Of a stretch of DNA of 64,000 bases, positions 7,370-50,304 are shown in pieces. Each line of letters begins with the position of its first letter. Within the stretch, counting starts at the first letter, position 1. The notes under the pieces were generated by a model. That model did not search any database. It was given only the letters and a program-made list of their open reading frames with translations, and had not been told where the DNA came from. The position numbers were made by a program, and so were the translations under genes. Source of the DNA: Beroe forskalii (Eukaryota > Ctenophora > Nuda > Beroida > Beroidae); contig WFMF01000052.1 in assembly GCA_011033025.1 (NCBI GenBank), positions 62,001 to 126,000 of the forward strand. The letters are read 5' to 3'.

Positions 7370-7529
7370 CACAATCAATTAAAAATTACGATGCCATCGA
7401 TATCCAATCCACCATACTGTCTCATAACTTTCTAAGTAATAACTTAACCTTAGTTTCCAAATTATTTATATCAGTAACATTTACTCAGTATTTATTTTAT
7501 GTTTGTCATGTACCAATACACCAATTGCT

Positions 7530-12032: not shown

Positions 12033-12128
12033 AATGGTGAGTGGGAATTTCACATCCATAAAGCAAATTTTTGAAGCTTATACAGGACAAATCAGTGTTT
12101 CAATATAATATACCAAACCACCCATAGG

Positions 12129-26700: not shown

Positions 26701-29700
26701 TGCAAATGCTCATTGTTCCAACAGAAGTCATAGGAATAAAGAAAGCAGCCGAGAAGATCGGAAGTTTTTGAAGTATTATTTCATCCCTAAAGATCCTATA
26801 CGTCGGAAAGCTTGGGCCTCCAGAATGGGCCGGGAGCTAAGCTGGAAACTTCTGCCATACCAGGATATGCTCCGATCATTTTGAACTGATTGATTTTAAT
26901 GAGCAAGACCTTTCCCGATGGAATCCAGATGAAATCGTCTATCTTACTACTTATAATTCTTCCTCATATATAAATAAATATATATCTGTCTGTCCGGTTT
27001 ATGATTTCTGTCTGTCCGGTGGCTTATATATAGCCACAGATTTTTCTGACACCAATCAGTACCCAATCAAGCATGCCAATTGCCGATGATCGGAATGTTC
27101 CTTACCAGAGTACCAGTGACGTTTGACACCACCTGACATATAGACATCACATAGAGGTAGGCACACCCGATTAAAATATTACCTCATCACTGATAAGAAC
27201 CTAAGAACCACAGTACTGCATTATACTGTACGAATTGCTGAAGCGAAAAAATTGTGAACGATGGCCGGAGGCCATGGGTTCTGCTAGTGAATACTAATGA
27301 TTGCTATTCTCACTCAACGAGAAAACATTATTGATATGCTTTACTTCCTTATCATTGTTATCATAAATTTATATATTTTTATCATATTTTACATTTTATG
27401 TGATTGGTTAAATTGTTACAGTGCATAAACTTCACACATTGGCAGATAATTACGTGATATCGGCTAATTACATTGAATCACGTAAAATCACATAATATGA
27501 GCAGTGTTTGTTTACTTACAGCAAGCGCGCATATGCTGCAGTTCTTGTATCCGCTCGAAACGGAATGCTAATTAGATCAGCCCTGGGCCCGCCTCGGTTT
27601 GTTATTTATAGCACATTGCGTTCAGTACTATTATAGCATCAATTTAGGATAAGGTCGGTTCTGGACCGCAGGGGGCCTTTAATTCAATCGAGTCGGATAT
27701 AGGTGTAGCAGTTCCTGGTCTAGATCAATGTGAACAAAAAATTGTCCAATGTCAGTATGAGAATCAGTTGTCAGAATCAACATCATCTTGCAGCACAAAA
27801 GTCAATTGGTTTAGCACGACTAAAACTAACAAATGAAGTTCTATTTTCCAATCATAAAGTTGAATATTTGATTTCGTTGCTCATAACTTTTGATCTGATT
27901 TTTGAAATTTTTCCCTCGCCAATTTTCTTTTTGTTTTACAAAAAGGCCTTGTAAGGGTTAGCAGACGTCATTATTTTGAGAGGATTGGGTGAACAAAAAA
28001 ATTAATGTGATCTGTAATGTGTATACTACCTTATTAATATCCTTACTGTAAAATCTGAAAGTGCCCGGAAATTTGAGGGAGATATGCCCACAAAATTTGA
28101 GGGAAATGTCCACAAATTTGAGGGAGATGTCCTCATATTTGAGGGAGATTTCGTCAACAAGGTACCATTGCAGGCACAATGTGCAACAATCAACTGCTCC
28201 TTTATAAAATCACTCGTGCAGACTGCAGGTGTAGATAATCAGTTTGGTGTAGTGGCATCTCACAGCAGCTAGCTTACAGCTATTTGGGTTCAATGCTTCG
28301 GCGATGCTAACCTTGCAAATTTTTATTCTTTTTTAAAACTTTGTTTATAAATTTCAACCATCGGACTTTTAAATTTACAGATAAGATGTGGCCCAGGCCC
28401 TTCGATAAGTAGGGATAAATATGTATCAACTTTCATCGTCAAGGAATTTTTCATCAATATTTTATTGGATTTCAAGCATTCTTGTTGCATAGAGACAATT
28501 GACAATGAGAAATTTGAGTGCGATCAATGATGACCATGGCTTCCAGTAAAAAATGTGTCTTGGTAATCAGAATCATCAATGTTGAACAGTATGAAGTATT
28601 GAAGTACGGACACGGTTATGATATTTATTCTTTTCCATGTCTTGAAATCATGTAAAGGGATGGTGTGATGCAAAATGAACCAGAAAGTGGAACAATTGTA
28701 CAATGTTTTGAAATCAACGTTTAGGTAAAATGTGATGCGTAACAGAAATGGGGCTAGATTCGTAATGAAATCTTGAAATGACACACAAACAAAATGGCAA
28801 AATGCTACAAAGAGTTCTAGGAATTGGCCGGAGCGTGCGCAAGGATTTGGCACATGTAATGGACCGAATTCACCCACGTGTGTTTAGTACGTTGGAGAGG
28901 GAAATAAAGCACCAGCAAAACCCTGTAAAACGAGGCAATGGGACAAACAAGAATTGCGCCGGCAGGTGCAATTCTTGTTTATGTGGTCAAAAGTATCCAA
29001 TAAATTTAAATTGTTTGAAATTTGTGAACAAGGTGCTGCGTAGCAGCGCCAAGTGAGCCGTGTATATGCAGGCCCAATGGGCCTGCTAGTTAGTATATAA
29101 CTTGATAAATGGTTTCATCCAACATTACTCAGGTGTGGTCATTGCAAAAAATTAGCCCCTGAATATGATGCTGCTGCAATGGAACTCAAGGAAGCAGGTA
29201 GTGTTGCTGTTCTTGCCAAAGTGGATGCTAATGAACATCAGGAACTTGGAAGTAAATATGGTGTTACTGGCTTCCCCACCCTTAAAATATTTAAGAAAGG
29301 CGTTGAAGAACCAATTAACTATGATGGAGGTCGGACAACATTTGACATTGTTGAAAAGATGAAGGAGTTGTCAGATCCAAACTGGGAGCCTCCTAAATCT
29401 GAAGTTCTTGAACTGACAACTGACAACTTTAATAGTATCGTCAATGATGAGCCCATCATTCTTGTGGAGTTTTTTGCCCCATGGTGAGTAGCTGAGTGTA
29501 AAATGATCATTGATAGTATCATTAACCACTAATAATTCTTTGTGGGTAATCAGAGCACTCAAAGCTATTACTGAAGTACTGAGACCTCATGAATTGATGG
29601 TCTAAAGCTTTATTTCTCTGTAAAAGATTTTAAATCAATGGTGTAAGCTGCCAACATCAATTTATTTTATGTATGCTGACGTGATTGAATTATTGAATGG

Positions 29701-32700
29701 CAATTGGCTACATTGATTTGTTGAATGGCTACATAGAAGTCATAGATGCATATGAGTGCAGATCATTCGAAAAAGAATCCTCGATAAATTTAGATACTAT
29801 AACAGTTGCCCGCACTTATCTATGCAACAGTAACTTACTGTTGTTTGGAGTATCTTAACATATCGAGCACTCCTTTTCAAGCAATCTGTGCTAATGAAGG
29901 ATATTGACTATACTAAACATGTGATGGATCTGCGAGAAATCCCCCAGTCCACCAGTGTGGAGACATTGACACGGCATCTGGGAGATATAGATATTGATTA
30001 CAGGATAGCTATTGTCGAAATAATACAGGTGTGGTCACTGTAAGAAGCTGAAACCAGAGTACGAGAATGCTGCTCGGCAACTGAAGAGCCACGATATCCC
30101 CCTCGCCACTGTGGATGCCACTGTAGAAACAGATCTTGCCAAAGAGTACGGAGTAACTGGATATCCAACACTTAAAGTCTTCAGAAATGGGAAAGTCAGT
30201 GATTTCAAGGGAGGCAGAACTGCAAGTGGTATGCAATGACTAAATATACGATTAATACAATGCAGAACAGATTTTATTTGATATCCTTTTTGTTAATTTG
30301 GCATACAGTAATTAACTGTTCAATCGTCAATATAACACATTGCATAAATTTATGATCCCAAAATGTCAATTGATCTGAGAAGTGAGAAAATTCTGATATT
30401 CCTCCATGCTGCGAACTTGTTTAGTGAATAGTGAAACAAGGAGTTATCAATCAAAAATATTTTCGACGATCGACATCATCACCATGTCTGAAAGATGATG
30501 TTTTTAATTTCAGAACTGAAGACGATGTCGATCATCTAATATATTTTTCAATAAACGAGTTCGCAACATAATAAGAGGAATATCAGAATTTACTCAAATC
30601 AATTGAAACAATGCGACTCTTGAGTATAACCCCACTGAAATAACTTATCCCAAAATGTGATCGTGAAATCGATCTTGGTGGTTCTATGACTATTTACTTG
30701 ATTATTTCCTAGAAATCGTTAATACGATGGTGACAGAAAAGAATCCACATACTTACGAAATCTCCACAAATGCACACAAAAAAGAGGTATACAGACGACA
30801 GCAATTATTGTTAATATTGTTTGCGTTCAATCAAATTGGTTTACTTTATATGGGTGAGCATTTGAGCAATCGGAGACATTTTGTCCTTATGTTATGTTTT
30901 ATTTACAGCTGTTATTTTCGGTGGGTACTTACCTAGAATATATAATAGATTATAGGTCCAAAATAGTTTTATTACCACTGAATAAATATGAATAGAAATA
31001 TAGCAATCACTGCCATGTCATAGTACAACAGGTAATACTTGATGAATGATGTTACAAACTGACTCATAAAAGTTAAAACTTTGAAAGAAATTCCCCCCCA
31101 CTACAGGTTGAGAAGCCCAGCACTGTTAGGCTGGTGGGGTTGTTCCCTGGCTTAGCTTGGGATTCCGTGGAGTTCCAGCTCTTCGAGGAAATCACCAACG
31201 AATTCCGGAGCTCCTACCCGTGCAGCCACTCCTTCGATGCCACTTTCGCTTCCAAATCATTCAAGGTTTGCAGAAATATAGATCATAATTCTTTGCTAAT
31301 TTCATTTTCTGTTTCTATTGCATTTCATAACATATTTCATCTGTTATTTTGTGCTAATGATGTGTTTATTATTCCCATTTTCAGGCATCAAAGCCAGCAT
31401 TGGTCGTAGTATACCCCTCTCTTTACGTCGCCAAGAAGGAGAAGGCTTTTGTTACTATTCCCATCACAGCAGAATCGTCTGTTTCGGACATCACAGCTTC
31501 CATCAGGTAAGACTAAGTTCTTGTTGCTAAAGTAGATCCCTGTCCCCGAGATTTTGATAATTGATGTAGTTAAGGTCCTAGAAATTTTTCGGTAAATTAA
31601 GCGATCCGACGAGGCCAGTATCGCGCCAGTATCACGCCAATAGCGCGCCAGTATCAGGCCTACCTCACGCCGTTATCGCGCCAGTAGCACGCCAGTAGCG
31701 CGCCAGTAGCACGCCAGTAGCACGCCAGTAGCGCGCCAGTAGCACGCCAGTAGCGCGCCAGTAGCACGCCAGTATCACGCCAGTATCACGCCAGTATCGC
31801 GCCAGTCGAAACTAACTTAAAGCCAGGACGCCAGTAACACGCCAGTATAAGATCGGATACTGGCGTGCTACTGGCGTCCTGGCTTTAAGTTAGTTTCGAC
31901 TGGCGCGATACTGGCGTGATACTGGCGTGCTACTGGCGCGCTACTGGCGTGCTACTGGCGTGCTACTGGCGTGATACTGGCGCGATACTGGCGCGATACT
32001 GGCGCGATGACGGCGTGAGGTAGGCCTGATACCGGCGCGCTACTGGCTTGACACTGGCATGGTAATGGCCTGATACTGGCGTGATACTGGCCTCGACGGA
32101 TCGCCCAATTAACCAATTTTTCTCCCAATATTTAATTGTACCTATTCGCGTATATTTAGCAGCTTCTGAAGTTCTGAGTTCTGTCTGAATTACTGAATAA
32201 GCTATTTTGATGGGTTTTAACGTTCTTTTGTGCAAAGTACGAGTACCTAATTTTTCTGAAACAATTAATAAAACCTACCTTTTAAAGTTTAGTAACGCAT
32301 TTCAAACAACCTTGTCGCCTTGCAGTTCACATGACAAACCTTTGGTGGGAGATTACGACTGTACCAACTGTAATAAGATATACGATGCTGTGGACACGGT
32401 CAGAGTCTACACCAGCAAAGACTATGGCAAGGGATTCGATAAAAGTGAGTTTCTCAAGAACTATTCATGTCTTCAGGGTTTGATACTTGTTCTGTATTAC
32501 AGTATTACCAATACTCATACCTGATCCCTAATGAATCATGTGACATGGTATTTATCTGGGGTTGTGTTGAGAAACACACTTTTTAGGTATACCAACATTT
32601 GGTATTCGGTCATTTGGCCTAACTGGACATCTGGCCTAACACTGGTTAGGGTCAGGGGAGAGAGATAAATTCAAAATTTCTTGAGTATTTCTTGAGTTTA

Positions 32701-35700
32701 AGGCGTTAGGCCAAATGTCCAGTTAGGCCAAATGACCTAGAACCCAACATTTCACCAACATTTTGACCAACATTTGACCAACATTTGACCAACATTTGTA
32801 ATTCGTGAAATTAATGAGCATTGACTGATGACTCTCTGAATTCGTTGGACCACCAGTCCACTACAACTCAAACCCATCCCTTATCAACAAACCACTATTG
32901 GTTGAAACATGGATTTCTTACTATTGTGTCATAATATGTTGGTTTATACAAATCGTGTTTCTCAACACAAACTCATGTTTAAAGCCCTCCCTAGGAGGCT
33001 AGTATTCCTGTACAGCCTTATGGTCGGGGTTTGATAAAAACTCATAGAAATATCATACTTATTTTTATTATACTATTATTATATTGACTTATTGAAGGGT
33101 TGAGCCAACGCGTTTGAATCTAAAACTCTAAAATACTCAATTTTTCTTGACTTAAAGATCTGTGATTGCCTTTTCAAGTATGAAGTGCTTTCAAGTGCTC
33201 TATAGTTGGACCTGACCACTTTATAGGTGACATCTTTAACTCTTTAAAAGGACAACAGTTTAACTATTAAAAGGTGGCATTTAGAACTAAACTTGAGGAA
33301 GATACAAAATATACGTACTTTCTTTTATTCTCATTGGAGGATGAGCTTATGCCCTTTGGATGGGAAAAAGTCCCGTTCATACTTCTAAGCCCGGTATTAT
33401 CTAGAATTACAAAGATGTCAGTTTGTCCTGAAACTGGGGTTCTTTTCGAAACAAAAAAACGGACTGAATTCAAATTTGCACTAAAATTTTGACTTAAATC
33501 TGTTTTGACTTGATCCGTTTTTTGACTTAATTAAATCTGTTTCGGAGTACATGTGCGTGACACATCCCTCAGCTGTGTTCGTGATGTCACCGCTCTACGT
33601 GTAACAATGGTGGCTGTTTCACAACCATGTCGTTTGTTTGAGCCACGTAGTTCCACTTGCATGGTGCTGTGCACATAGCTCATGATTCTTGTTACCTACT
33701 TGCTGTTCTAACTTACATTCAGATGCACCTTACCTTGGTATTTAGTTGATCATTATAAATATTCATGTTGGGCGTCGCGTACTAGAAACAGAGAAATGGC
33801 GGTTCGTTATTCAATACCTTAGTGGTAGAAATTAAGAAGTGTATTTATTAAGGACGTACTAATTAAGAAGTGTACTAATTAAGGCAGTAAAATTTCTCCA
33901 AAAATCAGGCAAATCTAGGACTAAATTTCACGTCGTTTCACCAATTTTCAGCCAAAAATACTGATATGAAAACAAGAAGAGGGCAGATTTTTCCATTGAA
34001 TTCAATCTATTTGGAATCTATGAAATAGACAAAAGTAAAACTAGGCGTTATAGAGAAACAGATTAGCAAACGGGTCAATGAGCATCCTAGAGTCAACACC
34101 ATGTTCTTTGCAACGTTTCACTGGAAGATGTGCAGGAAGACGAAGAAGCTGAAGAAATGCCTATAATTTTTTCGAGTGACAATTGTTTATCATATCAAAT
34201 TTGATTTTGTCTGCACTAATGCTTTCACTGAAAAATTCTGAACCTGTATTGAGAGAAAATAGAATGCTTAATATTGTAGTGAAAGAAAAGATAGGTATAA
34301 ATGTATAAATCTTTTACTTTAACAAAATTTTCTAAAATTTCGGTATTGTACAAATTACGGTAGGTAGAAATTAAGATTTGTAGAATTTAAGGAGTGTACT
34401 ATTTAAGGCAGTAAAATCGCTTACTACCTTAAATAGTACACTTCTTAATTTCTACCACTAAGGTATACCATTTCAAAGCATCGTGATATTCAGTTTAGAG
34501 TATCTAGCACCTATCTACTGTCTATACTCTATGATACAAACCGTGTTTATCCCGTCTCTTTCGTGAGATGTATTTTGTGTAACAACTTCGTGATTAATTC
34601 CAAACGGGATCTGTCTATATCATATTATAAGCTTTAAAACCGGAACGCTCATACTTTATGGAATTTAATTTTCGAGAACATGTAATGCCCAAGTCCAAAT
34701 TAAATCATTATTGAATCACGAGCTGTAAAACGAGTGCTTTATTTTTACCATGAAGTTATAAACGTGGACCTCATTCGGACACTGCGTTTTTGTTAGATTT
34801 TAATCACCACTCAGAGCGTAGTGAATTGGAACAAGTCTCTTCTTAGAGCTTTAGAGTGCAGTTAGTATATAGCAGTTAGCATTATATGTAATCTTATTAT
34901 GGAGATTGCGTTTGATAAAACTTTTGGGGATAGACCTCTGCAGTTGATTTATCCTTTTATCAGCATTGCAATGTTTACAGATCCAAACAAGAATTGCGCC
35001 CGTTACCCATTTGCGGGCGCTTAATTTCCCTCCCCCGAGCTTGAAGATATTAATAGAAACGCACAATTCTATATTCACGTGTAAATTTAACGATTTTCAA
35101 TTTCATTGATTCCGCGCTGTGTTGTTCCAGTGTCACTAAATTGCAGTATTTTTCACCCCTTCTATTGATGAAACAATCAGTAAGTAATTATGAATTAAGT
35201 GAGAAAATTAAAGCGATGGCTGTCACGGTTGAACTCGAAGCAACTAGCATTGATGATTTCGTGATACGCAAAGAATACAATGTAATGTAGTAATTTGCTT
35301 TCTACTTTTCTACCACAAATTTTTCAAAATTGCTCGATTTTCTAACATTGGTAAAATGTGAACTTGGAGCTTGAATTTTTGATAAACATTTGATCGGCTA
35401 GCTAAAGCTTAACTTGCGCGCAGTGCGCACCACGCATGATGTTGAGCCGCAGTGCCGCGCACAAAACTGGTCGATATGTACCTCCATATTGATCTTGCGG
35501 AGTGAATAGCGCGCAACTGCGCGCGCAATTAAGGTTGTTATGCAACCATTGTTGACGAAATCTCCCTCAAATATGAGGACATCTCCCTCAAATTTGTGGA
35601 CATCTCCCTCAAAATTTGTGGACATATCTCCCTCAAATTTCCGGGCACTTTCCAGAAATTACACTAGTTGTATTGCAAATCTGGACATGCTATGCACATA

Positions 35701-38700
35701 TCCTATTTCTCACCTTCCCAAACACGATCTCTGCTAACCCTCTACAATGCCTTTTTGTGAGACAAAAAGGCGATTGGGGAAGGAAAAAATTTGTACGATT
35801 AATACAATGATAATAAAATAATAATAATTATAAGAATAAGAATAAGAAGTGTAATTTAAACACCGCTATTACGCTTAAAGCTTTAAAGCCTATACTCTTC
35901 AAGCCTTTTATTTACTCTGCAGTGTAAAACATATTAGCCAATTTTGAGGGTACTTGTAGGCGTGCATTAATTTGTAATATTGCACTCCTCACATTGGCTA
36001 ATACACTTAGAGCATGGCAAATGGTCATGACGCTAATAAAATTATTGCACTCGGCTTCGCCTCGTGCAATAATTTATATTAGCGCATTCCCAGCCATGCT
36101 CTAAGCGTATATTATTATATATTGGTAAAACATAAATATTGGTTTTATTTGCAGGGCCAGCGTTGTTCTTTAATACTTTAATAAGAAGCAGCAAATCAAC
36201 TGCGGTGCGAAATCGTGCTACGTAATCACATTTCCCCATCACATTTCTCCATATCAGGCCTGTCATGGTACTTCTATCGCAAAGAAAAATTAAAACCTGT
36301 CATCAAAAATAGTGGTCTCCTGTGCTGATCTCTGTGCTGATCATCTAACTCTATATTGTATTATTGCACTGCATCTTCATCCTTCATGCTTCTATCTTCT
36401 ATGAACATTTTGATATCATGATTATAACTTTATAATTCGCAGTGGCTATATATATATTCATCTAAAATTGCCTCCGATAATTATTCGTCTGAACTGAATA
36501 TAATAGGATCATTTTAATATATCCTTAATACATCCATATATTATGATAGCATTGCAGGCGCGTGATTTTAACCATCAATTCGTACCGGAGACCGCTATGT
36601 TTTAGGTATTACTTGCGTCGCAGTGCGCATTGTGAATACCACTTTAATTTAAAGTTTGACGGTAAAATGCGGAGGTAATTGGTCACGAAAATCATTTTGC
36701 TGTTGGTTGTGTCAACAGACTTTGCATGGCGCGTGTGATATTATCGATTTATCTCCAAGACTTGAAGAACCGATGGCTGATATATTGATGGCTGAAATCC
36801 ATTTTACGGAGCGGCCTCTGCATGTCTTTGCTCGGATCGTTGAATAATAGCGTTACTACAAACTACTTCGGTGTGGATTTTAACTTTTCTGGAATCGAAT
36901 TAAAGCGTGTTTCGTGACTATCATGCTATAGAGCTACAGGTTATGAGTAAACTGCTCTCCAAGTGCTATATCCGGGGGCACTGGGCCTCTCCCAAACAAA
37001 TATATTCTGGGCTCCATCATGGGTCGATTTAAAACGTTACTATCCCAATCCTTCCAGCTTTATCATATCCAATACTAGCGTTATCGAGTTAATATCCGCA
37101 GTCACAATTCATCTTCATTATAATTTTAGTGTGATAGTAACTCAGTAACAGTTACAGTTCTGATTTAAACGACGGTCATTGATTCTATTCCTAATTACAC
37201 TATGCGGACATGCTCTATTAACACGCATGTACCTGATAACACTAATAGTAGTATAACTTTTAGTATAGCTGTAGAACTTCTAAGAGTCATGACGTGTAAC
37301 CATAAAACGTAATAAGGTTCGCAGTAGTCGCTCGCCTCTTCGAGGTTCCCTGTTATTACCCACCGTATTTACTGCACTAGTTTTACAATACCACAAAGAA
37401 AACTTGTAATTTCATTTCGAAACCTCTCTTTGAATACTCAGTAAAATATCACTCATCCGATAGCATACACTGAGTCTAATACTCATTCCATGCAGTAAGG
37501 CGCTGTCCAATGGATGGTTTCAGGCTTGCTGACATAGTGATGGGAAGTCTTCTTGTATTCATATCCCTTGCTGGAGTGGCAGGCAACAGTCTGGCGCTAT
37601 CCTACTTCATCAACGCTCGGCCCAGCAAATCCAACAACCGCTACATCAGGAATCTCTACATTGTCATAACCATTGTGGATCTCCTGGCTTGTGCATCTCT
37701 CTTCCCCATCATAGAGGCTGCATTCCAGGATGGTAGGGGTGGGGTGATGTTCATGTCTCCGTGGTTTTGCGATGTCTGGGGGCTGCTGTGGACCGGACTT
37801 CCCATCCGCTGACCGACAACTGCACCCCCTACTGATCATGTGACTTGATCACGTGACACACAATTATCACGTGATATATCACATGACATGACACGTGACT
37901 TTGTGATGAGTTAATTGAAAATTTATCATAATGTAGTGGGAGAGCAATCTGCAGTACAATTGAAACTGAATGTTGTATGTACATGTAAAGAAAAACTTAG
38001 AACATTTACTACAACATAAAACCATATAAACATGATATAATTTCTCAATATGACTAAATCGGATAGATAAACGATGAAAATCCACTGGTAACTTCAAATT
38101 TCATGTCCAAAATATTTCGCCACTTCAAACAAATATTCAAGAATATATTCATAATCTTCAAAAGCGCAACAGATGTCATACAGTTCTCGGTTGCGGGTTT
38201 TTCGCTTTTTGGCAGGTGAGATCCCCACAGCCAATCTGTCAAGATGAAAGTCTGTTGCAACTTGCTGCTCAGAGATACCTCTAAAGTACTCTTGCACAGA
38301 TGGCTTGGCCCTGTTTACCCTCGTCTTAATAAAGCCACGGTGGAAGCCTTCGACCATGTTGCTAGTCCGAGGGTAATCAAAATCAACCATGATAGTGTTA
38401 TAGTGATTCCAAAATACTGCAGGAAATCGAGGTTCACTCCTCTCATCACAGTCAGCACTAGAAAGTCCCAAATACGTTAACTCAAAATAATTTACGACAC
38501 TTAGTAAATTAGGATACTTACTAGCAATATAAATTGAAAGTTCTTCAAAGGCATCATCTACTTTGCCCATTGGCACAAAAGCTAAGAACACAACAAGCCT
38601 ACTTGCTCTTGCAAAATCTTTATCCTTGTAATATAAAATTTTAAACTTTTTAAATATATTTTTCTGTACACTCTGGCATAAATGGAAAAAGCAATTTATC

Positions 38701-41700
38701 AGAGTAAAACTTTCAAAAACATTTCTGAATGCATTCATAGCAGCTTTTTCAAAATCAATCATAACAATACCTACTGATGCCAAAAGATTTCCTAAAGCGT
38801 CCTTGATAACTGTGAGCAAAAATGTGTAAGTTTTTTCTTTCTTATCGGATAATAAAGCATATATAAGAGGTAAGCACTTGCCATCAATGACTGCATGAAA
38901 GGTGTAGGACTGCTGAAATTGTGGGGGGCAAACATAAAACGTCCCATCACAAATCCAGTTCGGGTGGTCTGATAATGTTTCCAGGTTCCGCTGTGTAGAG
39001 AAAACTATCAATCGCGAACCTGCATCCGTGAAGTCATCGAACAAAACGAAGGGATCTCCCCGATGAGTGACGGAGCATGTAGGTGGAAGGACGAATTCCT
39101 CAGCGTCTTTGGCTTCAGGGTGCATAGCTGATCCACAAGCCCTAGCTCTGCTGCGTTGTACGATTCGTCTGAGGGACTCTTCAGTAGGGAGCAGGGTGTT
39201 CAGTTCCGACGAAGACGACTTCTGAGCTTCTGTCACAAGATTCTGGGTTGCTGACAGTGGTTGGTCTGACGCCTTCCGCTTCAGAGAAGAGATCACATCA
39301 TGTCTCTCTCCCAACTTAGGATCAGGAGGATGATTGTGAAGCTTCTGCCCACGACAAAGGGAATCCGGTGCTTCATCCAACGAAAGGAATACCCTAGATG
39401 GACACTTGAATGATCTGTGCTTCGTACAACGCCAGCAAAAAGATGTTGAGCTGTTCTTATCCTTGTGATTGTTGTACGTGTAGCCATCAGTATCTAGGAT
39501 TTGACGATTCCCACGCTGACCAGTTATGAAGCGCTCGAATGCAACGTTCGTGGGAACAGGAGCAGAAAGGACAGCAGGGACAGGAGCAGCAGGGACAGGA
39601 CCAGAAAGGACAGGAGCAGCAGGGACAGGAGCAGCAGGGACAGGAGCAGCAGGGACAGGAGCAGCAGGGACAGGACCAGAAAGGACAGGAGCAGCAGGGA
39701 CAGGAGCAGAAAGGACAGGAGCAGAAAGGACAGGAGCAGCAGAGACAGAAGCATCAGGACCAGGAGCAGCAGGGACAGGAGCAGCAGGGACAGGAGCAGA
39801 AAGGACAGGAGCAGCAGGGACAGGAGCAGCAGGGACAGGAGCAGAAAGGACAGGAGCAACAGGGACAGGAGCAGCAGGGACGGGAGGAAGGATGGTGGCC
39901 GTGGATGACGATGCAGTAGAGGTTGGAACCATTAGAGTTTTAACTCAAAAATTCAGAAGTATACAAGTATAGCCATTGATAACTATTTCATCAAAGTTTT
40001 GAGTGGCCGTTTTTTGGTTAAGAATTAATTTATATGGTTTTTAGCAGACAATAAAGTGTAACATTTCTCCATCGATTGTTTTCATAACACTTAGACAGAA
40101 ACATAAGATGAAACAATGTGAGACGTTCATTTCTGATTCACTATCATGACTAAAATATGACTTTTACACCCAATTAGCCATAAGGTACTCCGAAGGTCAT
40201 GAAAAAGTAATTGCTAATTGGTTATAAATTGTTACAATCTAGACAAGGACTGACTGTCTCCTTTTGTTTCCAGTTCATGCCATCAATACGCTAACTAAGA
40301 GAGCACCTAATACCTACGTATCACATCCTCGTATCCTGTTATGTAAAGCTAATAAGCCCTTCTCCAATTCCAATGACGAAGGGAGAGCTTCCCTTTAGCG
40401 TTTGCGTGGAAAGGCGAACCACTGCGTAAACAAGTTGACGGTGGTAAGTTAATCAGTAAACAGTAAAGTAGTAACCCCAAAACATCGACTCTTGCACTAT
40501 AAATGCATAAATGCATAAATAGTGACTATCGTCAATTTTCATTGGTTTGCAATGTTAGGGGTTTTCCTCTGGCTTCAAACCTAATAACATTTTAAGGAAA
40601 AACATGTATGTTTCAGTCGACGCAAAGTGTTTTGAAAATTTCAAGTTGACTCAAAGTTTTGTTTTATATAGAATCACAAGCTATCTATTTTAAACTTTGG
40701 TCCCACATTGTAATAGACGGACTTAGATTTTAATTTATTTGAAAATTTAGATAAAATACATGAAATTGTACATGGCAAGGTCTTATTACCAGCACCTTCC
40801 AATGCAATGTTTGGAGCGAAGTACGTTCGATGTACCGTACTGTTTTTTCTTCGTACCTATAAGGTATTGTCATAATCATCATGTCTCTGATGTTAATTTT
40901 AACTTGATTGTGAATGGAAATATGTTTTGATAGTGAGGGGTGCAGTTGTCGCCCTGAGTTCATATCTTTGATTGAAACTTCAGCACATCACATGTACATC
41001 ACATGACACATCACGTGACAATTTGATCATGTGACATATCACGTGACCTTCTCCTGGGGGTGCAGTTGTCGTGCAGCCTTCCCATCATGTCTATCTTCCT
41101 CATAGCCTTCATGGGCCTGTCTCGTCTCTGTGTGATCATCCGGCCCAGCTTCCGTCTGAAGGAGCGCATCTCGTGGGCGGTGCCCCTGTGCTTCTGCATC
41201 GTCCTCCTCACCCTCATCCTGGCCATGTTCTACTCCGAGGGCATGTACATCGTCTACAGGATGGAGTGGCTTGCTTGCTACCCTGCTGTCTTCCCTTCTC
41301 ATGAGGACCCTGACTCACTGGTATCCCCTAAAGATATCAGCCGGGGCGTGGTCCTTTCCACGCTCTTCTCCATCATTCCGGGCATATCCATCGTCCCCAT
41401 CTCTGTTTCAGCTGTTCTGTCTGTGGTCTACCTCAGGGTCTCTGCCCGACTGTCCAGCCGGATGTCTGTATCCACGAAGCAGCAGAACTCTGCCACAGTC
41501 ACCATCCTGCTGGTCACACTCCTTTACTTCCTATTCAACATCCCCTTCTCCCTCACTGTTGTTGGTGGACTGGTTATCAACCACTCTCTGGCTGACGAGA
41601 GTGTAGAGATCACTGTGAAGACGTACAACTCAGCTGCCTTGTGGGACAGCAGAGTACTAAACGAGTACGGCTACTTTGTGATTTTCTACCTGTGTATCAG

Positions 41701-43338
41701 CCTCAACAGCTTGTGTAATCCTCTTATGTACTTGTACCGGATGGAGAAGTTCAAGAGTTGGGTCCGAGCCAAGACGGGATTAGGTTCGTCTACAGAAGGA
41801 CGATCTAAAAAGGACCCTGACAGAGATCTGGTATTGGTCAACGAAGGTGGTGATGGTGGGACTAATACTGGATGCAGTGCTACCAACATATCCTCAGATC
41901 GAGTTTAGATTTTAGGAAGATATTTACGTGTATATGACTGATGTCCTTGAACGGCATCTGGTCGCTGTGGTTATATTCGAGAATGTTCAGTGTTGATGCA
42001 GTAGTTTCCAATGCGCACAATTAAAGACCATCCGCACAATTTAAGCCCTTCTAAGTTCCAAAGGACAATTTGCTCCACAAAATATATGTTCCAGAAACTA
42101 CCTGGATAGAATGTGCCTCATCATGATGAGGACTTCATTGTTGAGCCTGATATTTCTTTCACGATCACGAAGAAGAAATAATGTTATTGCTGACCCCTTT
42201 TTCGGGGAATGAATGTTTGCAAGTCTAATTATTTTTACATTTTAATTGTAAATTGGATACCTCATCAGTATTCATTATACTCCCTTTATTTATTGCTGAG
42301 CATTAATTTTTCATTATCTTTACCATACCTCCTTCTTCAACCAATAGAAATATGGACTTTAGAGTCACGGGACTGGTAAAATCACTGGTAAATTGCGATC
42401 ATAGACAGAACCCCCGCATCACAATAAAATTGAATCGACTAGACGTTGATTATTAAAATTAAGTTGGCAATGGAAAACATCATTGAACATGAGCATTATT
42501 TGTCTGTCAACTTGAATCCCTACAATTATGTTAGTTAATGAATTTCAATGCTCAATGATGGGCAAGCAAGCCTAGCTTGTTAACTTGATACTCAATACTC
42601 CTTAGAACTTTAGAAATATTGACAATACGCTTAACTAAGTATGCAGTTTATCTTGATACCCAATATCTTTAGGAGCTTTAATAATACGCTAAACTATTCT
42701 AATTATTCAGTTGTGGACCTAGTTGTCAACATGTCAGCCAGGTTATAACCCCACATGAGTTAAATTCGAACCTTTTAAATCCAATCTAATACTGCTGCAA
42801 CGTTTCAGATACTAAATACTGGCAGGAAAGTCTGCCAGTGTCGCGAGGAAGTCTGTAGCAAAGGCCCCAATTCTCTTGTGATGTGCGACGACTAAGCAGA
42901 CTGCTGACATGGATGTCATGAAGCTTACGGGACTTGGAGCTGTGAGTAACTTACTAACTGCGTCTAACTATGTTTTTGATGAACTTGCACTATTTAAATG
43001 CGCACTGATTAGAATTGTGTTCTCACTAGTTAAGTGCTCACCAATTGCGTCAACGTGGTTCAGTTCCTAAGTGTATTAAGTGTAAAAAGTAACTGCTTCC
43101 TGCAATTTAATAACTTCAATTAATCAGGAATTCAGGAGACCGCTATTATTATAATATCTCACTGAACAACACCACCGTGTCTCCCTAACAAGCTAACACT
43201 TCCAATCCCCAGGAAACGGTGTTTGGCATCAAGACAGCTAAGGGTGACAAGTACAGCCCTGATGAGGAGGTGCTGGATGATATGGACGACTCGAGGACCT
43301 TGAGGAGTTCATCGAGGAATATCTGGCAAAAACTCAAA
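20730..43338 (+). CDS. PDIA4/ERp72-like protein disulfide isomerase, ten exons recognised, last two damaged
   Basis: Exons joining in phase: 20730-20790, 21047-21194, 29133-29483, 30029-30228, 30713-30786, 31107-31265, 31385-31506, 32326-32444 (411 codons). Damaged exons follow at 42809-42941 and 43213-43338. Exon 1 encodes a signal peptide ([18 protein letters not shown]). An acidic linker follows (DILDDPNDE), then two thioredoxin domains, each with a WCGHCK redox site (exons 2/3 and 3/4) and cis-Pro segments GFPTLK and GYPTLK. Exons 5-8 fit non-catalytic b/b' domains ([28 protein letters not shown]). Family role: oxidation and isomerisation of disulfides in the ER lumen. The final a' domain and a KDEL-type tail were not found. 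Exon 9 starts in phase (TKYWQ) but needs indels to reach DVMKLTGLG; exon 10 needs one to reach [14 protein letters not shown]. Either the 3' end is decaying or the sequence has indel errors. The eighth intron contains a GPCR gene. Confidence 0.88.
21195..22636. other. Intronic repeat DNA, related to the 9840-12032 foldback family at its right end
   Basis: Within PDIA4 intron 2. From about 22330 to 22500, GATCAGGAAGGTCGTACAGA, AATGGCCATGTTTATATACG and ACTTGTCAATAAACAT match arms of the foldback element upstream of the P450, so a relative is inserted here. No ORF of note. Confidence 0.6.
22637..22999 (+). mobile_element. Non-autonomous Helitron-like element, copy 1
   Basis: Starts TCTTACTACTTATAATTC after an A, and ends with hairpin ATGGCC-GGA-GGCCAT, then GGGTTCTG and CTAG followed by T. 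A 5' TC, a 3' hairpin about 10 bp before CTAG and insertion between A and T are Helitron hallmarks. The copy has an expanded TAAA microsatellite at 22676-22700. No Rep/helicase ORF. Confidence 0.8.
23081..23185. repeat. GC-rich palindromic minisatellite
   Basis: A left series of CTGACCCCCTG / CTGGTGAACCCT units is followed by its reverse complement (CAGGGGGTCAGTAGGGGTTC and on), meeting at about 23140. Arms are about 45 bp with a few mismatches. Confidence 0.8.
23673..25881. repeat. Array of a short quasi-palindromic motif at about 150-bp spacing, bracketed by 25-bp inverted repeats
   Basis: The motif CTCAACCATGTGGAG or a variant recurs among otherwise unrelated sequence. In the left half it reads CTCAACC..GTGGAG: 23978, 24119, 24313, 24454 and 24624, with partial forms at 23881 and 24020. 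In the right half it is reversed, CTCCAC..GGTTGAG: 24766, 24930, 25079, 25228, 25386, 25539 and 25696. The switch is near 24700. Right-half spacing is 149-164 bp. The block is bounded by exact 25-bp inverted repeats at 23673-23697 and 25857-25881 (starting GGTCATGTTGAAAGC). Exceptions exist, such as a reversed copy at 24355. Likely binding sites for an element-encoded protein; function unknown. Confidence 0.8.
26098..26442 (+). mobile_element. Non-autonomous Helitron-like element, copy 2
   Basis: Same family as 22637-22999: TCTTACTACTT start, CTGTCTGTCCGG repeats, ATGGCCGGAGGCCAT hairpin and CTAG end followed by T. It is about 345 bp and lies inside the TTAA-flanked element. Confidence 0.85.
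26639..26941 (+). pseudogene. THAP-type zinc-finger ORF, frameshifted and cut by a Helitron-like element
   Basis: From ATG 26639 the frame encodes a basic segment (KHARKKQKA) and then [31 protein letters not shown], matching the first half of a THAP C2CH finger (C-x4-C, FPkD..R..W...). The frame then ends in LRSF, but the next frame reads [18 protein letters not shown], the expected CxxH half. One small indel therefore breaks the finger. Farther on (NPDEIV) the sequence is interrupted at 26942 by a Helitron-like insertion. THAP domains are common in transposase-related proteins and bind DNA, so this is probably the 5' part of the host element's gene. Confidence 0.7.
26942..27287 (+). mobile_element. 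Non-autonomous Helitron-like element, copy 3
   Basis: Nearly identical to copy 2, with the same TC start after A, hairpin and CTAG end before T. It is inserted in the tail of the THAP reading frame. Confidence 0.85.
28066..28152 (+). repeat. Minisatellite of AAATTTGAGGGAGATGTCC type, four to five units
   Basis: Units of about 24 bp read AAATTTGAGGGAGATGTCCxCA. The stretch from about 27940 (AAAAAGGCCTTGTAAGGG then TTAGCAGA) to 28160 is repeated in reverse at 35551-35770. This defines a repeat family present twice in opposite orientation. Confidence 0.85.
28946..29092 (+). mobile_element. Helitron-like 3' end with hairpins
   Basis: ACAAGAATTGCGCC-GGCAGG-TGCAATTCTTGT forms a hairpin (about 28946-28980). 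The element ends in GCAGGCCCAATGGGCCTG followed directly by CTAG and T (29088-29092). The 5' end is not defined and may reach 27940. It lies just before PDIA4 exon 3. Confidence 0.6.
30366..30606. mobile_element. Foldback element in PDIA4 intron 4
   Basis: Arms of about 110 bp meet near 30495. TCAATTGATCTGAG near 30366 pairs with the complement near 30593-30606, and GATCGACATCATC near 30470 pairs with GACGATGTCGATC near 30522. Related sequence extends to about 30645. A half copy lies at 7530-7690. No ORF. Confidence 0.75.
31601..32106. mobile_element. 506-bp foldback element made of 10-bp repeats, with 6-bp target duplication
   Basis: Both arms are chains of the decamer CGCCAGTAGC/CGCCAGTATC, reversed in the second half, and meet near 31853. 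The termini are GCGATCCGACGAGGCCAGTA on the left and the complement of GGGCGATCCGTCGAGGCCAG on the right. AATTAA flanks both ends (31595-31600, 32107-32112). It lies in intron 7 of the PDIA4-like gene. A short remnant (CTGGCGCGATACTGGCG) occurs at 44190-44207. Confidence 0.9.
32562..32970. mobile_element. Foldback/MITE-like element with 16-bp terminal inverted repeats
   Basis: TTGTGTTGAGAAACAC (32562-32577) is exactly complementary to 32955-32970. Inside is a second inverted pair around GGCCAAATGTCCAGTTAGGCC (32610-32740) and four direct copies of CCAACATTTGA (32755-32800). Confidence 0.8.
33817..34463. mobile_element. 647-bp MITE-like element with TA target duplication
   Basis: The ends CCTTAGTGGTAGAAATTAAG and its complement are flanked by TA (33815-33816, 34464-34465). 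Inverted similarity continues with AAGTGTACTAATTAAGGCAG-type phrases near both ends. The centre is AT-rich and noncoding. Confidence 0.8.
35551..35650 (-). repeat. Minisatellite, reverse-oriented partner of 28066-28152
   Basis: TCTCCCTCAAATTTGTGGACA units are the complement of the array in PDIA4 intron 2. The family end CCTTTTTGTGAGACAAAAAGG lies at about 35748-35770. The two arrays face each other across PDIA4 exons 3-8. Confidence 0.85.
36004..36107. repeat. Hairpin with CTCGGCTTCGCCTCG loop
   Basis: Arms of about 45 bp (CTTAGAGCATGGC..., GACGCTAATA, ATTATTGCAC) pair across the centre CTCGGCTTCGCCTCG. A similar loop (CTCGGCTACGCCTCG) occurs at 58630-58645. Confidence 0.8.
38094..39932 (-). 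CDS. MULE transposase with N-terminal FLYWCH-like zinc finger
   Basis: A 612-codon ORF starting at ATG 39932. Residues about 15-120 are a low-complexity Pro/Ala/Val tract ([11 protein letters not shown] repeats). Next is a FLYWCH-like module ([20 protein letters not shown], then HNHPP). The MULE catalytic core follows: WICDGTF (Asp329), [10 protein letters not shown] (Asp393), CFFHLCQS and [10 protein letters not shown] (Glu528), a DDE arrangement with the C..H motif between the second Asp and the Glu. It ends YFGHEI. Predicted role: nuclear DNA transposase that binds the terminal repeats and cuts and pastes the element. The frame is intact, so the element may be autonomous. The repeat tract also gives long spurious ORFs in other frames. 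Confidence 0.93.
   Translation of the reverse strand: MVPTSTASSSTATILPPVPAAPVPVAPVLSAPVPAAPVPAAPVLSAPVPAAPVPAAPGPDASVSAAPVLSAPVLSAPVPAAPVLSGPVPAAPVPAAPVPAAPVPAAPVLSGPVPAAPVPAVLSAPVPTNVAFERFITGQRGNRQILDTDGYTYNNHKDKNSSTSFCWRCTKHRSFKCPSRVFLSLDEAPDSLCRGQKLHNHPPDPKLGERHDVISSLKRKASDQPLSATQNLVTEAQKSSSSELNTLLPTEESLRRIVQRSRARACGSAMHPEAKDAEEFVLPPTCSVTHRGDPFVLFDDFTDAGSRLIVFSTQRNLETLSDHPNWICDGTFYVCPPQFQQSYTFHAVIDGKCLPLIYALLSDKKEKTYTFLLTVIKDALGNLLASVGIVMIDFEKAAMNAFRNVFESFTLINCFFHLCQSVQKNIFKKFKILYYKDKDFARASRLVVFLAFVPMGKVDDAFEELSIYIASKYPNLLSVVNYFELTYLGLSSADCDERSEPRFPAVFWNHYNTIMVDFDYPRTSNMVEGFHRGFIKTRVNRAKPSVQEYFRGISEQQVATDFHLDRLAVGISPAKKRKTRNRELYDICCAFEDYEYILEYLFEVAKYFGHEI
39539..39908. repeat. Imperfect minisatellite (AGGAGCAGCAGGGAC type) inside the transposase gene
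   Basis: Units of 15 bp, GGAGCAGCAGGGACA and GGAGCAGAAAGGACA, are repeated about 20 times with small changes. On the minus strand they encode the Pro-Val-Pro-Ala-Ala / Pro-Val-Leu-Ser-Ala pentapeptides near the transposase N-terminus. Length variation would stay in frame. Confidence 0.9.
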
Positions 43339-45554
43339 GTGAGTACGGGTATGTTCTGGGGCACAGTACTGGTACATGTACTGGGGCACAGCATTGCCCC
43401 GTATTTTCATGAATAGGTAGATGATAGTCAAGAAATTGGACTGATGAGATCGATTTAACATTAAGAAGAAACATTAATGCTGGCTGACATGTTCCACTAT
43501 CAAATGCTGGTTATGAAGACATGAAAGAATTTTACAGATAAGAAGACTGGCAAGGGAAGTTACTTAGGCATTTTCTTTCGTTGATGAATACAGTGAAACG
43601 ATCAAGTTTTACAAAAAAATGAAATGATTGAAATGAACGTAAATCAGAATTTATACATCATACATGGATTTGTGAAATGTTATATTTAAGACATTTAAAA
43701 TCAAAATATCAAATTAAGTTAACACTCAATAGTTCAATAAACACAATAATTACTGTTCAAACTTGATACTACACAACGAAAACGCGGTTAAATCGATAAC
43801 AGAATACAAAATAAGTGTAACATAAAGCATCGACTTGGTGAAAGTTGTCAGAATGTTCAAAATATCATACTTAGTCCCATGATAGTTACAAACAAGCTGT
43901 AAGAAGCGTCTATTACATAGTGAGGGATGAAGTGTGGACTTATGATTTGCTTGTATAAATTGGTATCTACGATATGGTACTATTTAATATAATTTGCCAT
44001 TCTCTGTACTATTATTATATTTTTGGTACGAAAACGTTTTCATGTGGAATGTATAATACTTAAACGTATAATATAAACTTAAGGCGCACACGAATGACGC
44101 GCAGAGTACATTTGAATTGCCCCACATAGAAGTTTTGAGTTGTTCTATTTTTTATTGCAGTTTTCAATTGGTGCACTGCAAAGTAAGATGCTGGCGCGAT
44201 ACTGGCGTTGAAAGTTTCTGCACGTTAGACTCCAACTAGTCGGCACCTACTGCAATATTGTACCGCGGTACGTACCGTGGTAGTTGTCCTAACTAGTCGG
44301 CACCTACCGCGGTACGTACAATGGTAGGTGCCGACTAGTGAGGACAATTACGGTACGTACCACGGTACGCACCGTGGTAGTGACGACTAGTTGGGGATTT
44401 AGACCTCAACCAGTCAACTCAATGACTGGTTGAGAGCGCACACGTGTGTTAGTCACGTGGATATTCGCATTCGGCTGGGCACACTCTAGCTAAGAGTGCA
44501 GGGGCAAAGGTAGTTGGAAAATAAACCTTGTTATTTGTTTATTTGTTAATTGTTTTTGTTTTTCGTGAAACTTTGCATAATTTGTTAACCTATTTGATTG
44601 TGAAATATGCTTTTATTTAGTTTATACAATTATCAATTTTCTGTTCAATTAATTAGTACTTTTATTTATTCTCTTTGACTCAAAGATACAAGTACGAATG
44701 TAAACGATGGTTCTTTTAATGACAATCAATTTCGTCGTTCTACGACATCTTCAGGTCTAAGTTAGTTAATTTAATATGTGTTGCAGTTGTAAGTTTATTT
44801 CTGTTCATAGATCATCTTTTATAAGTTCTAAGAAAATAGAATATAAAGCAGAGAACAATAGCTCGTGTGACATATGGTGGTATTGAACACAAAGCTTTAT
44901 TTTAAAAACTCTCATTAAAACTCCTTTCTTCCTTTGAGTTGTTTTATTTTTATTCTACTTGGTATATTCCACTTTACTCTTTCGTCATTTGATTTTGAGA
45001 GCCTTACAAAGGAGGCCTACGATGAGCTTATCAATTATTCAAAATATGATTACTACTCTGAAGTACCTAATCAGTTGTTGAGCTCAGACCTCTATTAACT
45101 TATTTACTTTTGTGCGGATTATAGCAGGCAATACTAGTATAGTGTAAGCTGAAAAGAGTTAAATGATACGAGAAGGAGCAGCCAGAGAAAGCGATTTCTT
45201 AGCTTGATAACTTGCTCCTAAAGTCCTAAATCCTTCATTTCGCTCTGTATTCCTCAGGCTCTTAGGGACTTGACACCACTTGTTAAATTTCTACGTTCTT
45301 GCTTAATATAACGTTGTTGCAAACACTCCACGATCATGTTTACAATCGTCACATCGTGGTATTTGGTACAATAACATGGAGGCAATATCGTTGAAGTTTA
45401 CGTATTATGCTTGTATTTTATTATGTGAATTGTGAATGATGAACCATCGCTTGCTTTCACCAAGTTTCAAGTACGTACCTAGTGTATTACTGTAACAAAG
45501 TTTCACTTGGCACATTTCCATTATACTAAATACTTCAGTCACTCAGTTACTCGG
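43339..45554. other. No recognised gene
   Basis: Scanned for the missing last PDIA4 thioredoxin exon (an APWCGHC-type site) without success. Contains the palindromic element at 44232-44394 and a decamer-repeat remnant at 44190. A short open stretch near 44992-45098 has no family match. Confidence 0.4.
44232..44394. mobile_element. Small nested palindromic element
   Basis: CCAACTAGTCG (44232-44242) pairs with CGACTAGTTGG (44384-44394). Between them, CGGCACCTACCGCGGTACG, GTACCGTGGTAG and ACTAGTCGGCACC recur in both orientations, giving several overlapping palindromes. Confidence 0.75.
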
Positions 45555-45621: not shown

Positions 45622-45740
45622 GTAATTGTCTAAAATATTGAGTAAAATAATCAAACCTGCCCACAACGGCATAGATAGGCTAATAATAATGTAAACTGCA
45701 AAATAATAAAATATTACTTATAACTATTCAATATATCTAT

Positions 45741-46845
45741 TCAAGGTAGGAGCCTCCGCTCTCCCAGAAAATCTGACAAACTAGGAGTTGAAAAACCGCG
45801 ATTTTTTGCAGGGTGGTAGAAAAAAGGTGTCTTCGTATTGCTACATTCTTCTTTTTTGAATAAAGGCTTTAGATTTTTTGTGGTTAACGCTCAAAGTTGG
45901 AAAAAGGGTCGCGAAAAACATGATCGAGTTTTAGATTTGATTCACCAGTTGAGCGCGTTGCTATGGATACATGGGCTAGCGCAAGCAAAACTGCACGTGC
46001 ATTTTCACGAATCTGCCATTTCGTTGTTGTATATTTTGGAAACGTTTCCACTGTTGAAATTCATAATTTATACGTTCCCACTAGAATATTCGAGTTCAGT
46101 AAAAAGTTTTTGACCGAAGACTATCTTATCACCGTCGTAGGAGAAATGGTAAGAGTTGTTCCATTATGAAAATTAGCGGTAATTCTTTCAAGAAAACAAT
46201 TCGATGGTTTGCTGCGAAAATTCGACGGAATGAGGAATTCAATTATTTACTGAAGCTAGAAGTGGGTTATGAAAAGATAAAAATGCAAACAATTTTGATT
46301 TTAATGAGCTCGGATTCAAATTTGTTGCCCATCTATTCTCCTAATCTGAACTTAAGATTAAAAACATTATTTTTGAGTTCTTCTTATTTAACAGCTGTTT
46401 GTTCGAGGTTAATATGCAATCGTAAAATTTGGTCTATATTTTCATTTATTTTCAAAGCCCTTATGTGAATATTTCGTATTTCGTTACGTTGCACCCCACC
46501 CCAGTAACAAAAAATTGCATCAATGACTAACTTAGCGTAAGATATCACATTTGACAATTCCAAACTTAAAAAAAACCGCAATTGTTCATTTTATTCCAAT
46601 TTCATACGTTTCAATTGTTTTTGTCATTAATTTTCATAATTCAATATTATATTTATGAAACTTGCGTTGTGGCTCATGAATTTTGAAAATACTGCGTACT
46701 TTAATGTCCATTTTTTCAACTTTTTCAAGTCTAAGAAACCAGGGTCCTGACTAGGGGCAATTATATGCTGGCATGGTGGTGCCCTGTAGCCAGCATTGAA
46801 AGGGTCGGGTGTCCTGTGACCCAGAAGGCCCAACGGGCCTTCTAG
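45741..46845 (+). mobile_element. Helitron-like element, copy A
   Basis: Starts TCAAGGTAGGAGCCTCCGC and ends in hairpin AGAAGGCCC-AAC-GGGCCTTCT running into CTAG, followed by T. The interior has short ORFs in alternating frames that match copy B but no known protein. Non-autonomous. It is separated from copy B by 27 bp. Confidence 0.7.
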
Positions 46846-46872
46846 TCTATTATTATAATCGAGAGAGGTAGT

Positions 46873-48365: not shown

Positions 48366-48884
48366 TAATTCCATATATTTAGTAGCTATAAAATGCATTA
48401 TTTTAGAGACATTCTTGGTGTAAATTTTATCTGAAAGTTAAATTGTCTAATTAGGGATTGGGGGTCCAACCCTAATAGAGTAATAACTTGGAAAACACGA
48501 ATTTGGGATAGGAGTTGGCCAGGATGGCCTGGACGTGTACCAACATTTTGTCGGTGGTGTCGAGTCCATGGGTCCAACATTGCCCATGTGAGGCCTCGGA
48601 GCAAACATGGGGTCCAAAAATCGAAATTTTAACGGAAAGAGATAGAGCTTAGTTTTTGCTTGCATTCGATTCGTCTCGACGAGCTGATCATATTTTTAGA
48701 GTAATTGTTTGTCGAAATCGGATGAAAAATGAACAAAGCACGCGTGCCAAAGTGGCAGTTGGCCTATTTTGGACCTATAGGTAGCCAGATTGGCCGGGTT
48801 TTTTGAGATATGAGCTTTAAAATTGTTTTGCCCATCATTTAGGTCAAAATTGATCATGGGCAAACCAAATTACACGAGAATGAC

Positions 48885-50303
48885 CTTACCTTCCAAAAAG
48901 AGAAATCCCCTCGGTAGCAGATTTCAAAATCCCCTCGGTTTCAAGCTTGCTCGGAGCCAAGAGCCAATTAAGTTGCTATTAAGTACAGCCCGCCGCGCAG
49001 GCGAAAATTTTCAAGGTTTTGCACATGAATCTGCCTCTAAGATCAATTTAGTTAATAAATAATGTGATTAAAACAGCCAGCCATAAACAAAAATGTGAAA
49101 GTTTTACACCTGAGATTGTGTCTAGTATAGGATCAATTAAGTGGCATAATTCTATCAGTGCAGCTCGCCGCACCTGAATCAGCCTCTTACATCAATTTAT
49201 TTAATGTATAATGTGATTAAAACAGCCTGCCGTAGGCAAAAATTGTGAAGCTTTTACACCTGAGATTGTGTCTAGGATCAATTTAGTGACATACTTGGAT
49301 CACAACAGCCCGCCGCAGGCGAAAATTTTTAAGGTTTTGTGCGTGAATCTGCCTCTAGGATCAACAATAAATAATTGTTTACCTAAATAATTGTTTACCT
49401 GAATTTGTTTATTAATGTATAATGTGATTTAAACAGCCAGCCGTAGGCAAAAAATGTGAAAGTATTACATCTGAGATTGTGTGTAGGATCACTTTAGTAA
49501 CATTACTGAATCACAACAGCCCGCCGCAGGCGAAAATTTTGAAGGTTTTTTGCCTCAGTCTGCCTCTGAGATCAATCTGGTAATGTTTAATTTGATTACC
49601 AATCCTTTTCTTGCCAAAGGCGTTTTCTATCGATTATCTATCATTGAACTATTACAAAAGTTAAAAATGGTCAGTATTTTCCTCTTGTGTGGCAAATCGC
49701 TTTTCCCTCGCCTTACTTCCCCTCACCTTACAGTTACATCTCATCACGAATCACCGTAATTCCCCTCACCATACTTCCCCTCACATTAATTAGTTAATTC
49801 CCCTCACCATACTTCCCTCACATTAATTAGTTAATTCCCTCACCATATCTCCTCTTACGTTAATAATTACAATAATTACCCTTACTTCCCCTCATCTTAA
49901 TTACTTAAGTCCCCTCACTTTACTTACACTCAGTTAACGTTCCCTCACCTTAATTCCCATCTGCCCATCACACCATCTTCCCCTCTACTTCACTTCCCTT
50001 TGCTTCACTACCCGCTTCCCCTCACCTTATGATCACTTCCCCTCACGTCCCTTTGTATCATGTATGTTTGTCTTCCACTTACATATGCATCTTCACAGTT
50101 AAAATTAATCTACGTTGTTATTAGAACACATTAGATTTAGTTGCAAATTTAGTTGCAAATAAATACAATCGAATTTTTATTCGAGATTTCGGCACAGCAC
50201 GGATGCTGCGCGTGCGTGCATCTTGAATTGAAAATCCCCTCGGTTTTGAAAAAAATCCCCTCGGTAGCAGTGCTACTCCTGCTACCCACTTTTGGAAGGT
50301 AAG
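48885..50303. mobile_element. 1.42-kb repeat element, dimer unit A
   Basis: Bounded by CTTACCTTCCAAAA (48885-48898) and its complement TTTTGGAAGGTAAG (50290-50303). Inside are five diverged direct subrepeats of a CAGCCCGCCGCAGGCGAAAA / CTGCCTCTAAGATCAA unit, then a pyrimidine-rich CCCCTCACCATACTT region (49690-50050). Both termini carry ATCCCCTCGGTAGCAG and CCCCTCGGTTT phrases. No coding ORF beyond a 69-codon shadow. Confidence 0.8.
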
Positions 50304-50304
50304 C

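Follow-up and report, generated by a model that had tools for sequence, protein, structure and literature searches.

A MULE-type DNA transposon in the coding sequence of one of two near-identical class A-type GPCR copies, with an empty counterpart in the same assembly

Terminal inverted repeats are present in most, not all, MULEs. According to the accessible excerpts of PMC6446971, target duplications in the superfamily range from 8 to 11 bp. The same excerpts describe the Phantom MULEs (group 20), defined by phylogeny, which have invertebrate hosts, duplications of 8-10 bp where these are given, terminal inverted repeats of 18-613 bp or none, one or two ORFs and, in some members, FLYWCH. Rehavkus, an outgroup in that work, combines a MULE-like structure with a PHD finger, a 9-bp duplication and a minisatellite that is C-terminal or lies before the 3' terminal inverted repeat. 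The excerpted text of PMC5225508 describes Muta1, a MULE of Aedes aegypti, in which a FLYWCH finger and a DDE transposase form one protein of 504 aa and duplications are 8 or 9 bp.

The locus reported here lies in a 64,000-bp stretch of DNA (the window; C603:62001-126000 in an assembly of 216 Mb and 1134 contigs, whose gene content points to an animal). We consider it very likely that a MULE transposon encoding a FLYWCH and MULE/DDE transposase inserted in one of two near-identical class A-type GPCR copies and duplicated 8 bp (Table 1). The element has the superfamily's MULE domain, a DDE triad by motif, an 8-bp duplication and terminal inverted repeats. It resembles Muta1, as excerpted, in joining a FLYWCH finger and a DDE transposase in a single protein, in its duplication length, and in the H and W conserved between the second D and the E; the D-D, D-H and W-E spacings are 69, 24 and 18 in Muta1 and 64, 24 and 20 here (PMC5225508). 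Unlike Muta1, its protein has 612 aa and an N-terminal minisatellite, and the likeness is one of features rather than of a tree. With the Phantom/Muta group, as far as the excerpts of PMC6446971 describe it, the element shares FLYWCH, the 8-bp duplication, a single ORF and short ends, and by Pfam and structural features only it fits that group. In aphid Phantom elements a minisatellite follows the transposase ORF, whereas here it lies inside the 5' part of the ORF. Rehavkus likewise combines a minisatellite with a MULE-like structure, but it differs in its PHD finger, in its 9-bp duplication and in the placement of the minisatellite, which in our element is N-terminal and in frame (PMC6446971).

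Table 1. Features of the interrupted receptor locus, in window positions
Feature	Positions	Strand	Remarks
Block shared with C691:812845-819034 (inverted there), transposon excepted	34742-43910	+	88-96% identical in pieces
GPCR frame, first part: residues 1-99 (TM1, TM2, first half of TM3)	37510-37806	+	open frame, 99 codons
Target site duplication, left, TTCCCATC (8 bp)	37799-37806	+	single copy at C691 empty site
MULE-type DNA transposon, both ends, 3272 bp	37807-41078	- (strand of transposase)	termini same in 10/10 copies; absent from C691
Left terminal inverted repeat, 23 bp	37807-37829	+	20/23 positions match other end
Left subterminal cluster of TCACGTGA / TCACATGA / TCATGTGA motifs	37836-37897	.	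CACGTG at element positions 44, 62, 86
Transposase, 612 aa + stop (codons 38097-39932)	38094-39932	-	no internal stop
MULE transposase domain, residues 350-420	38673-38885	-	PF10551, E 1.5e-8
FLYWCH zinc finger, transposase residues 135-201	39330-39530	-	PF04500, E 5.4e-9
In-frame 15-bp minisatellite, 21 units, Ala/Pro/Val-rich, transposase N-terminus	39568-39886	-	
Second, internal copy of right terminal repeat, 120 bp inside end	40932-40951	+	
Right subterminal cluster of TCACGTGA / TCACATGA / TCATGTGA motifs	40999-41046	.	CACGTG at element positions 3206, 3234
Right terminal inverted repeat, 23 bp, invariant final C	41056-41078	-	3'-terminal C in 10/10 copies
Target site duplication, right, TTCCCATC (8 bp)	41079-41086	+	
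GPCR frame, second part: residues 100-372 + stop (rest of TM3, TM4-TM7, C-tail)	41087-41908	+	
Truncated 3' end of UNC-93-like gene, last ~54 codons	43753-43910	-	gene runs through on C691

The direct repeat CTTCCCATC stands at 37798-37806 and again at 41078-41086. This 9-mer occurs five times in the window, both strands counted, against 0.43 expected, and taken alone the repeat is weak evidence of an insertion. The insertion is established because there is an empty counterpart on another contig, C691, and because sibling elements have the same termini. In the window's own assembly, C691 carries the sole other match to the right flank. It also carries the only other near-identical place for the left flank among the matches listed (40 of 156 candidates scored); the rest of that list consists of short pieces (<100 bp) of a dispersed repeat. 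The two flanks meet at C691:815725-815733, in an empty site that reads GGACTTCCCATCATGTC and contains one CTTCCCATC. There the same gene forms one open 372-aa frame without the transposon (C691:814903-816021), so that the single 372-codon pre-insertion gene, previously deduced by joining the two halves, is now observed directly. We found no evidence against an insertion. We suggest that the element moved by cut-and-paste into the receptor coding sequence, duplicating 8 bp of a target gene whose open frame contains no intron. The event is of an ordinary kind for transposons, but it is unusually well documented: the limits of this MULE insertion into animal coding sequence are sharp, and the same assembly contains its empty counterpart.

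Sibling copies also settle the length of the duplication. We compared ten copies, the window copy among them, for which both ends were read; other two-ended copies, for example on C301, C936 and C227, were left out, and an eleventh, on C581, was read at one end only. The base that follows ...GTGCAGC is C in all ten and hence belongs to the element, leaving a duplication of 8 bp; the matching base before the last eight of the 5' flank is C in only four. The first-pass annotation had described a perfect 9-bp target duplication. The repeated 9-mer is indeed present, but its ninth matching base is a coincidence, and the 9-bp reading is rejected in favour of an element one base longer. A perfect 8-bp duplication accompanies nine of the ten copies, including that in the window, and only the C914 copy has no clean 8-mer. 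Copies with different ends, which had been named as possible counter-evidence, did not appear among these ten. A repeat read at a single insertion can thus overstate the duplication by one base, and sibling copies reveal this.

The interrupted gene begins with an ATG at 37510, and the insert is its sole break, with no further stop or frameshift in either part. The second part supplies 273 codons and a stop at 41906-41908, for a joined frame of 372 aa. The cut falls between residues 99 and 100, in TM3, at what we take to be 3.37/3.38, with C87 assumed to be 3.25 and R112 to be 3.50. Each part aligns to the open C691 frame without indels, and the two copies differ at 16 codons (pS 0.033, pN 0.0083, ratio 0.25). 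In a Pfam scan, residues 2-99 alone matched no family, the second part alone gave 7tm_1 at 18.9 bits, and the whole C691 protein gave 27.8 bits. The last score is just under the cut-off of 30.5. The protein resembles class A GPCRs (the rhodopsin family) in having seven hydrophobic segments (seven peaks, from a hydropathy profile only) and invariant hallmark residues. N26, D57, C87, R112, C163, N306, S307, N310 and Y314 are the same in all nine aligned relatives from the genome, and include several class A hallmark positions; the receptor has SR where class A usually has D/E-R in TM3. With 7tm_1, six of the nine reach E 0.001 or better (the best 5e-13), and three do not. This alignment takes in nine of eleven relatives; left out were L056, twin to L055, and L060, whose N-terminal part is missing. 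Matches to solved structures were weak (best E 0.0087). The earlier description of a class A-type GPCR frame cut in TM3 by a MULE is borne out in its coordinates, its frame and its insert.

Translation of the window copy would run into an in-frame stop at the insert's second codon (CGC TGA), which limits the product to a stub of no more than 100 residues, containing TM1-TM2 and part of TM3. We weighed the alternative that the element acts as, or sits within, a spliced intron and that the receptor is still made. Twenty-five GT..AG combinations (donors 37601-37812, acceptors 40900-41230) do keep some frame open, but none restores the 372-aa protein. The best-scored of them, with donor ATG|GTAGGG at 37733 and an acceptor that ends at 41105, would remove 31 residues, among them C87 and W90, which are invariant in the nine aligned relatives. 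Ten exact removals of the insert were examined, and none has GT-AG, GC-AG or AT-AC borders. An intron with GT-AG borders had been offered earlier as an observation that would overturn the insertion; with no such borders and no restored protein, we reject that reading and regard it as highly improbable. Given the stop after the junction and the lack of a restoring intron among those tested, the window copy is very probably lost unless the element leaves. By sequence, a null allele or a pseudogene is very probable here, whereas the frame on C691 remains open; for the host the consequence would probably be the loss of one of two near-identical receptor copies.

The transposase frame was said to be intact, and it is, running for 612 aa without a stop. 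FLYWCH scores 36.5 bits (cut-off 23.6) and MULE 35.4 bits (cut-off 27.6), and up to E 1 the Pfam scan returned only these two families, with no PHD finger and no hAT family. Members of the hAT superfamily also make an 8-bp target duplication; with no hAT family among the Pfam matches, we reject membership there. D329, D393 and E528, with H417 and W508, fit a putative DDE catalytic triad by motif and by spacing against the Muta1 numbering. Other frames of more than 90 aa inside the element are shadows of the transposase minisatellite, and among the matches listed, arrays on C191, C622 and C969 correspond to the minisatellite part alone. Among solved structures there was no significant relative of the transposase; the three matches (E 0.13 or worse) cover residues 64-133, mostly minisatellite.

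A DNA search of the assembly found at least 102 matches to the family (40 of 80 candidates scored). There are 30 exact occurrences of the 15-mer GGGGTGCAGTTGTCG, spread over 12 contigs, and one of its reversed control. The 15-mer itself is doubled, 109-120 bp apart, at eight of the ten right ends with an exact match (7 contigs, window included), and the right ends on C35 and C914 have a single exact match; the doubling indicates that a second, internal copy of the end is common in the family. Among copies of the same subfamily, those on C35, C851, C526 and C914 have internal deletions, and those on C164 and C25 are broken up. A sister subfamily (C450, C1, C472, C581, C936 and others) matches at ~75-86% in the longer pieces; pieces ≤28 bp and contained pieces were dropped from these BLAST comparisons. 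Two short non-autonomous copies in mirror arrangement, with matching internal deletions, lie at G000:C301:37313-38537 and 39026-40249. The family was not recognised in literature listings or in the excerpts of PMC6446971, PMC5225508 and PMC13359780, and it may be listed in Repbase.

A protein search with the transposase listed 76 matches (72 of 2274 candidates scored). Among these, the window copy is the only close member open over all 612 residues, and other close matches are partial or contain stops. Copies with both the same ends and an intact ORF had been proposed as a target for searching: the same ends recur in all ten readable copies, and the full-length ORF, among the matches listed, belongs to the window alone. 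The window element is a candidate for an autonomous FLYWCH-MULE whose transposase may be competent; deletion derivatives of the family are present, and the 8-bp duplication recurs in nine of ten copies. Distant MULE ORFs at ~26-33% identity, several without stops, were also among the matches listed and indicate that other MULE families exist in the genome. We compared coding pieces at eleven loci, of which two are the same C35 copy and one (C436, 29% identity) is a different family. Between the window transposase and same-subfamily pieces, pN/pS is 0.17 and 0.00 for C35, 0.00 for C159, 0.27 and 0.64 for C164, and 0.61 and 0.58 for C851, and the sister copy C450a gives 0.08 and 0.10; some of the pieces with high ratios may contain frameshifts. 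The transposase was formerly under purifying selection, and some dead copies show raised ratios.

The window element had been called a complete MULE, which holds for both ends and for the whole coding part. However, extra non-coding sequence stands at element position 2626 in five of six same-subfamily copies (102-128 bp in C851, C526, C914 and C25; 776 bp in C164) and is absent from the window copy; C35, judged from BLAST pieces only, lacks it too. The window copy thus departs from a plain consensus of the family, although its coding part is intact. This absence could suggest an old, inert copy kept open by chance, as could the lack of very near relatives in its subfamily (six of the seven transposase pieces have pS 0.019-0.135, and the seventh 0.275). 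Such a reading has to accommodate identical duplications, receptor and transposase frames with no second lesion, and a counterpart, differing by only pS 0.033, from which the element is missing; we think it unlikely. The insertion took place after the two GPCR copies had split (pS 0.033). It had been called very recent, and this stands in a relative sense only: the duplication is unmutated, there is no second lesion, and the insertion postdates the copy split.

The empty copy has different flanks and is located on another contig; it may therefore be a paralogue, in which case the insertion need not segregate. The block shared by the two contigs measures 6.2 kb on C691, and 9.2 kb when the insert is counted (BLAST pieces ≤150 bp were omitted in one comparison table and <60 bp in another). 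A further indel distinguishes the two receptor blocks, ~400 bp at C691:816699-817097 that are absent from the window at 36879-36881; it has a 3-bp overlap at the junction and is perhaps another mobile element. On balance we favour a duplicate over the other allele, because the block ends on both sides, because an UNC-93-like gene is truncated in the window, and because flanking sequence is seen once. The N-terminal part of a PDI-like gene has no close second copy in the assembly (21/21 candidates scored), and the 5' part of the UNC-93-like gene has none among the matches listed (39 of 3204 candidates scored); for alleles, two copies of each would be expected.

A less probable but still serious reading is that C603 and C691 are two alleles in a highly heterozygous animal, with the insertion heterozygous and still segregating. 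Collinearity that stops on both sides after 6.2 kb of C691 argues against this, as do the truncated gene and the single-copy flanks. The divergence itself would suit alleles: a receptor pS of 0.033 and a block 88-96% identical are like those of an apparent haplotig pair, in which C214 and the 26.8-kb C1048 are collinear in the compared pieces, at 88-97% for pieces >200 bp (BLAST pieces ≤100 bp omitted; for L065 against L066 the first 3.6 kb of L065 are excluded, as L066 ends there). Other window segments have 95-97% copies elsewhere (the P450 on C503, in part; 46947-48876 on C213), and by sequence the assembly seems to retain some alternate haplotypes. Two more near-identical receptor pairs lie on different contigs, L052/L053 (C324 and C691:471k) and L055/L056 (C1048 and C214), in line with either retained alternate haplotypes or recent duplication. 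Similarity within the C324/C691:471k pair ends after 2.5 kb (90.6% identical), which fits allele or paralogue.

Also compatible with alleles are the pieces of the PDI-like gene, which we take to be PDIA4-like, beside the same block edge on both contigs. Its first thioredoxin domains lie at 29101-30236 in the window, on one side of the block edge, and its last domain occurs on C691 in two inverted arms (820420-820593 and 808966-809139) beside the same block end. Searches of the assembly with its parts found no contiguous copy of this gene, so one or both block joins may be rearranged or misassembled; the assembly at the block looks rearranged or partly uncollapsed. Two further explanations of the block were considered. 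It does not appear to be a larger, GPCR-carrying transposon, with no obvious inverted ends by eye at either edge. A chromosomal inversion duplicating the block at its breakpoints predicts that different block ends touch the two PDI halves, and the same end touches both. Which of the two GPCR copies is ancestral is a matter of inference.

In yeast, Muta1 bordered by 8- or 9-bp duplications left precise sites in ~90% of revertants, according to the excerpted text of PMC5225508. By analogy, precise excision of the window element is plausible. In its strongest form, the element would be the last autonomous copy of a decayed MULE family, heterozygous in the receptor, and its precise excision would restore the receptor. 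We regard this combination as quite unlikely; if true, it would be a natural, reversible receptor knock-out whose state is set by the family's last working copy.

Elsewhere in the window, an intronless P450 frame of 523 aa (PF00067) is open at 12075-13646 and has a partial copy in two pieces, 96-97% identical, at C503:744635-747237. DNMT3-like pieces lie on the minus strand at 2633-7378 and 63501-64000, with an ADD finger match for 2636-3067 and the other pieces assigned by eye; 354 bp of 6111-6464 recur at 63647-64000 (99% identical), and 130 bp near 3406-3533 recur at 63501-63630 (98% identical). A ~1.1-kb repeat at 45740-46846 is found at 85-97% in at least 40 other places in the assembly (40 of 2813 candidates scored). 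Finally, 48884-49700 and 50304-51117 form a tandem segmental copy, 99% identical and ~1.4 kb apart, across which rows of tandem repeats recur at a distance of 1418 bp.
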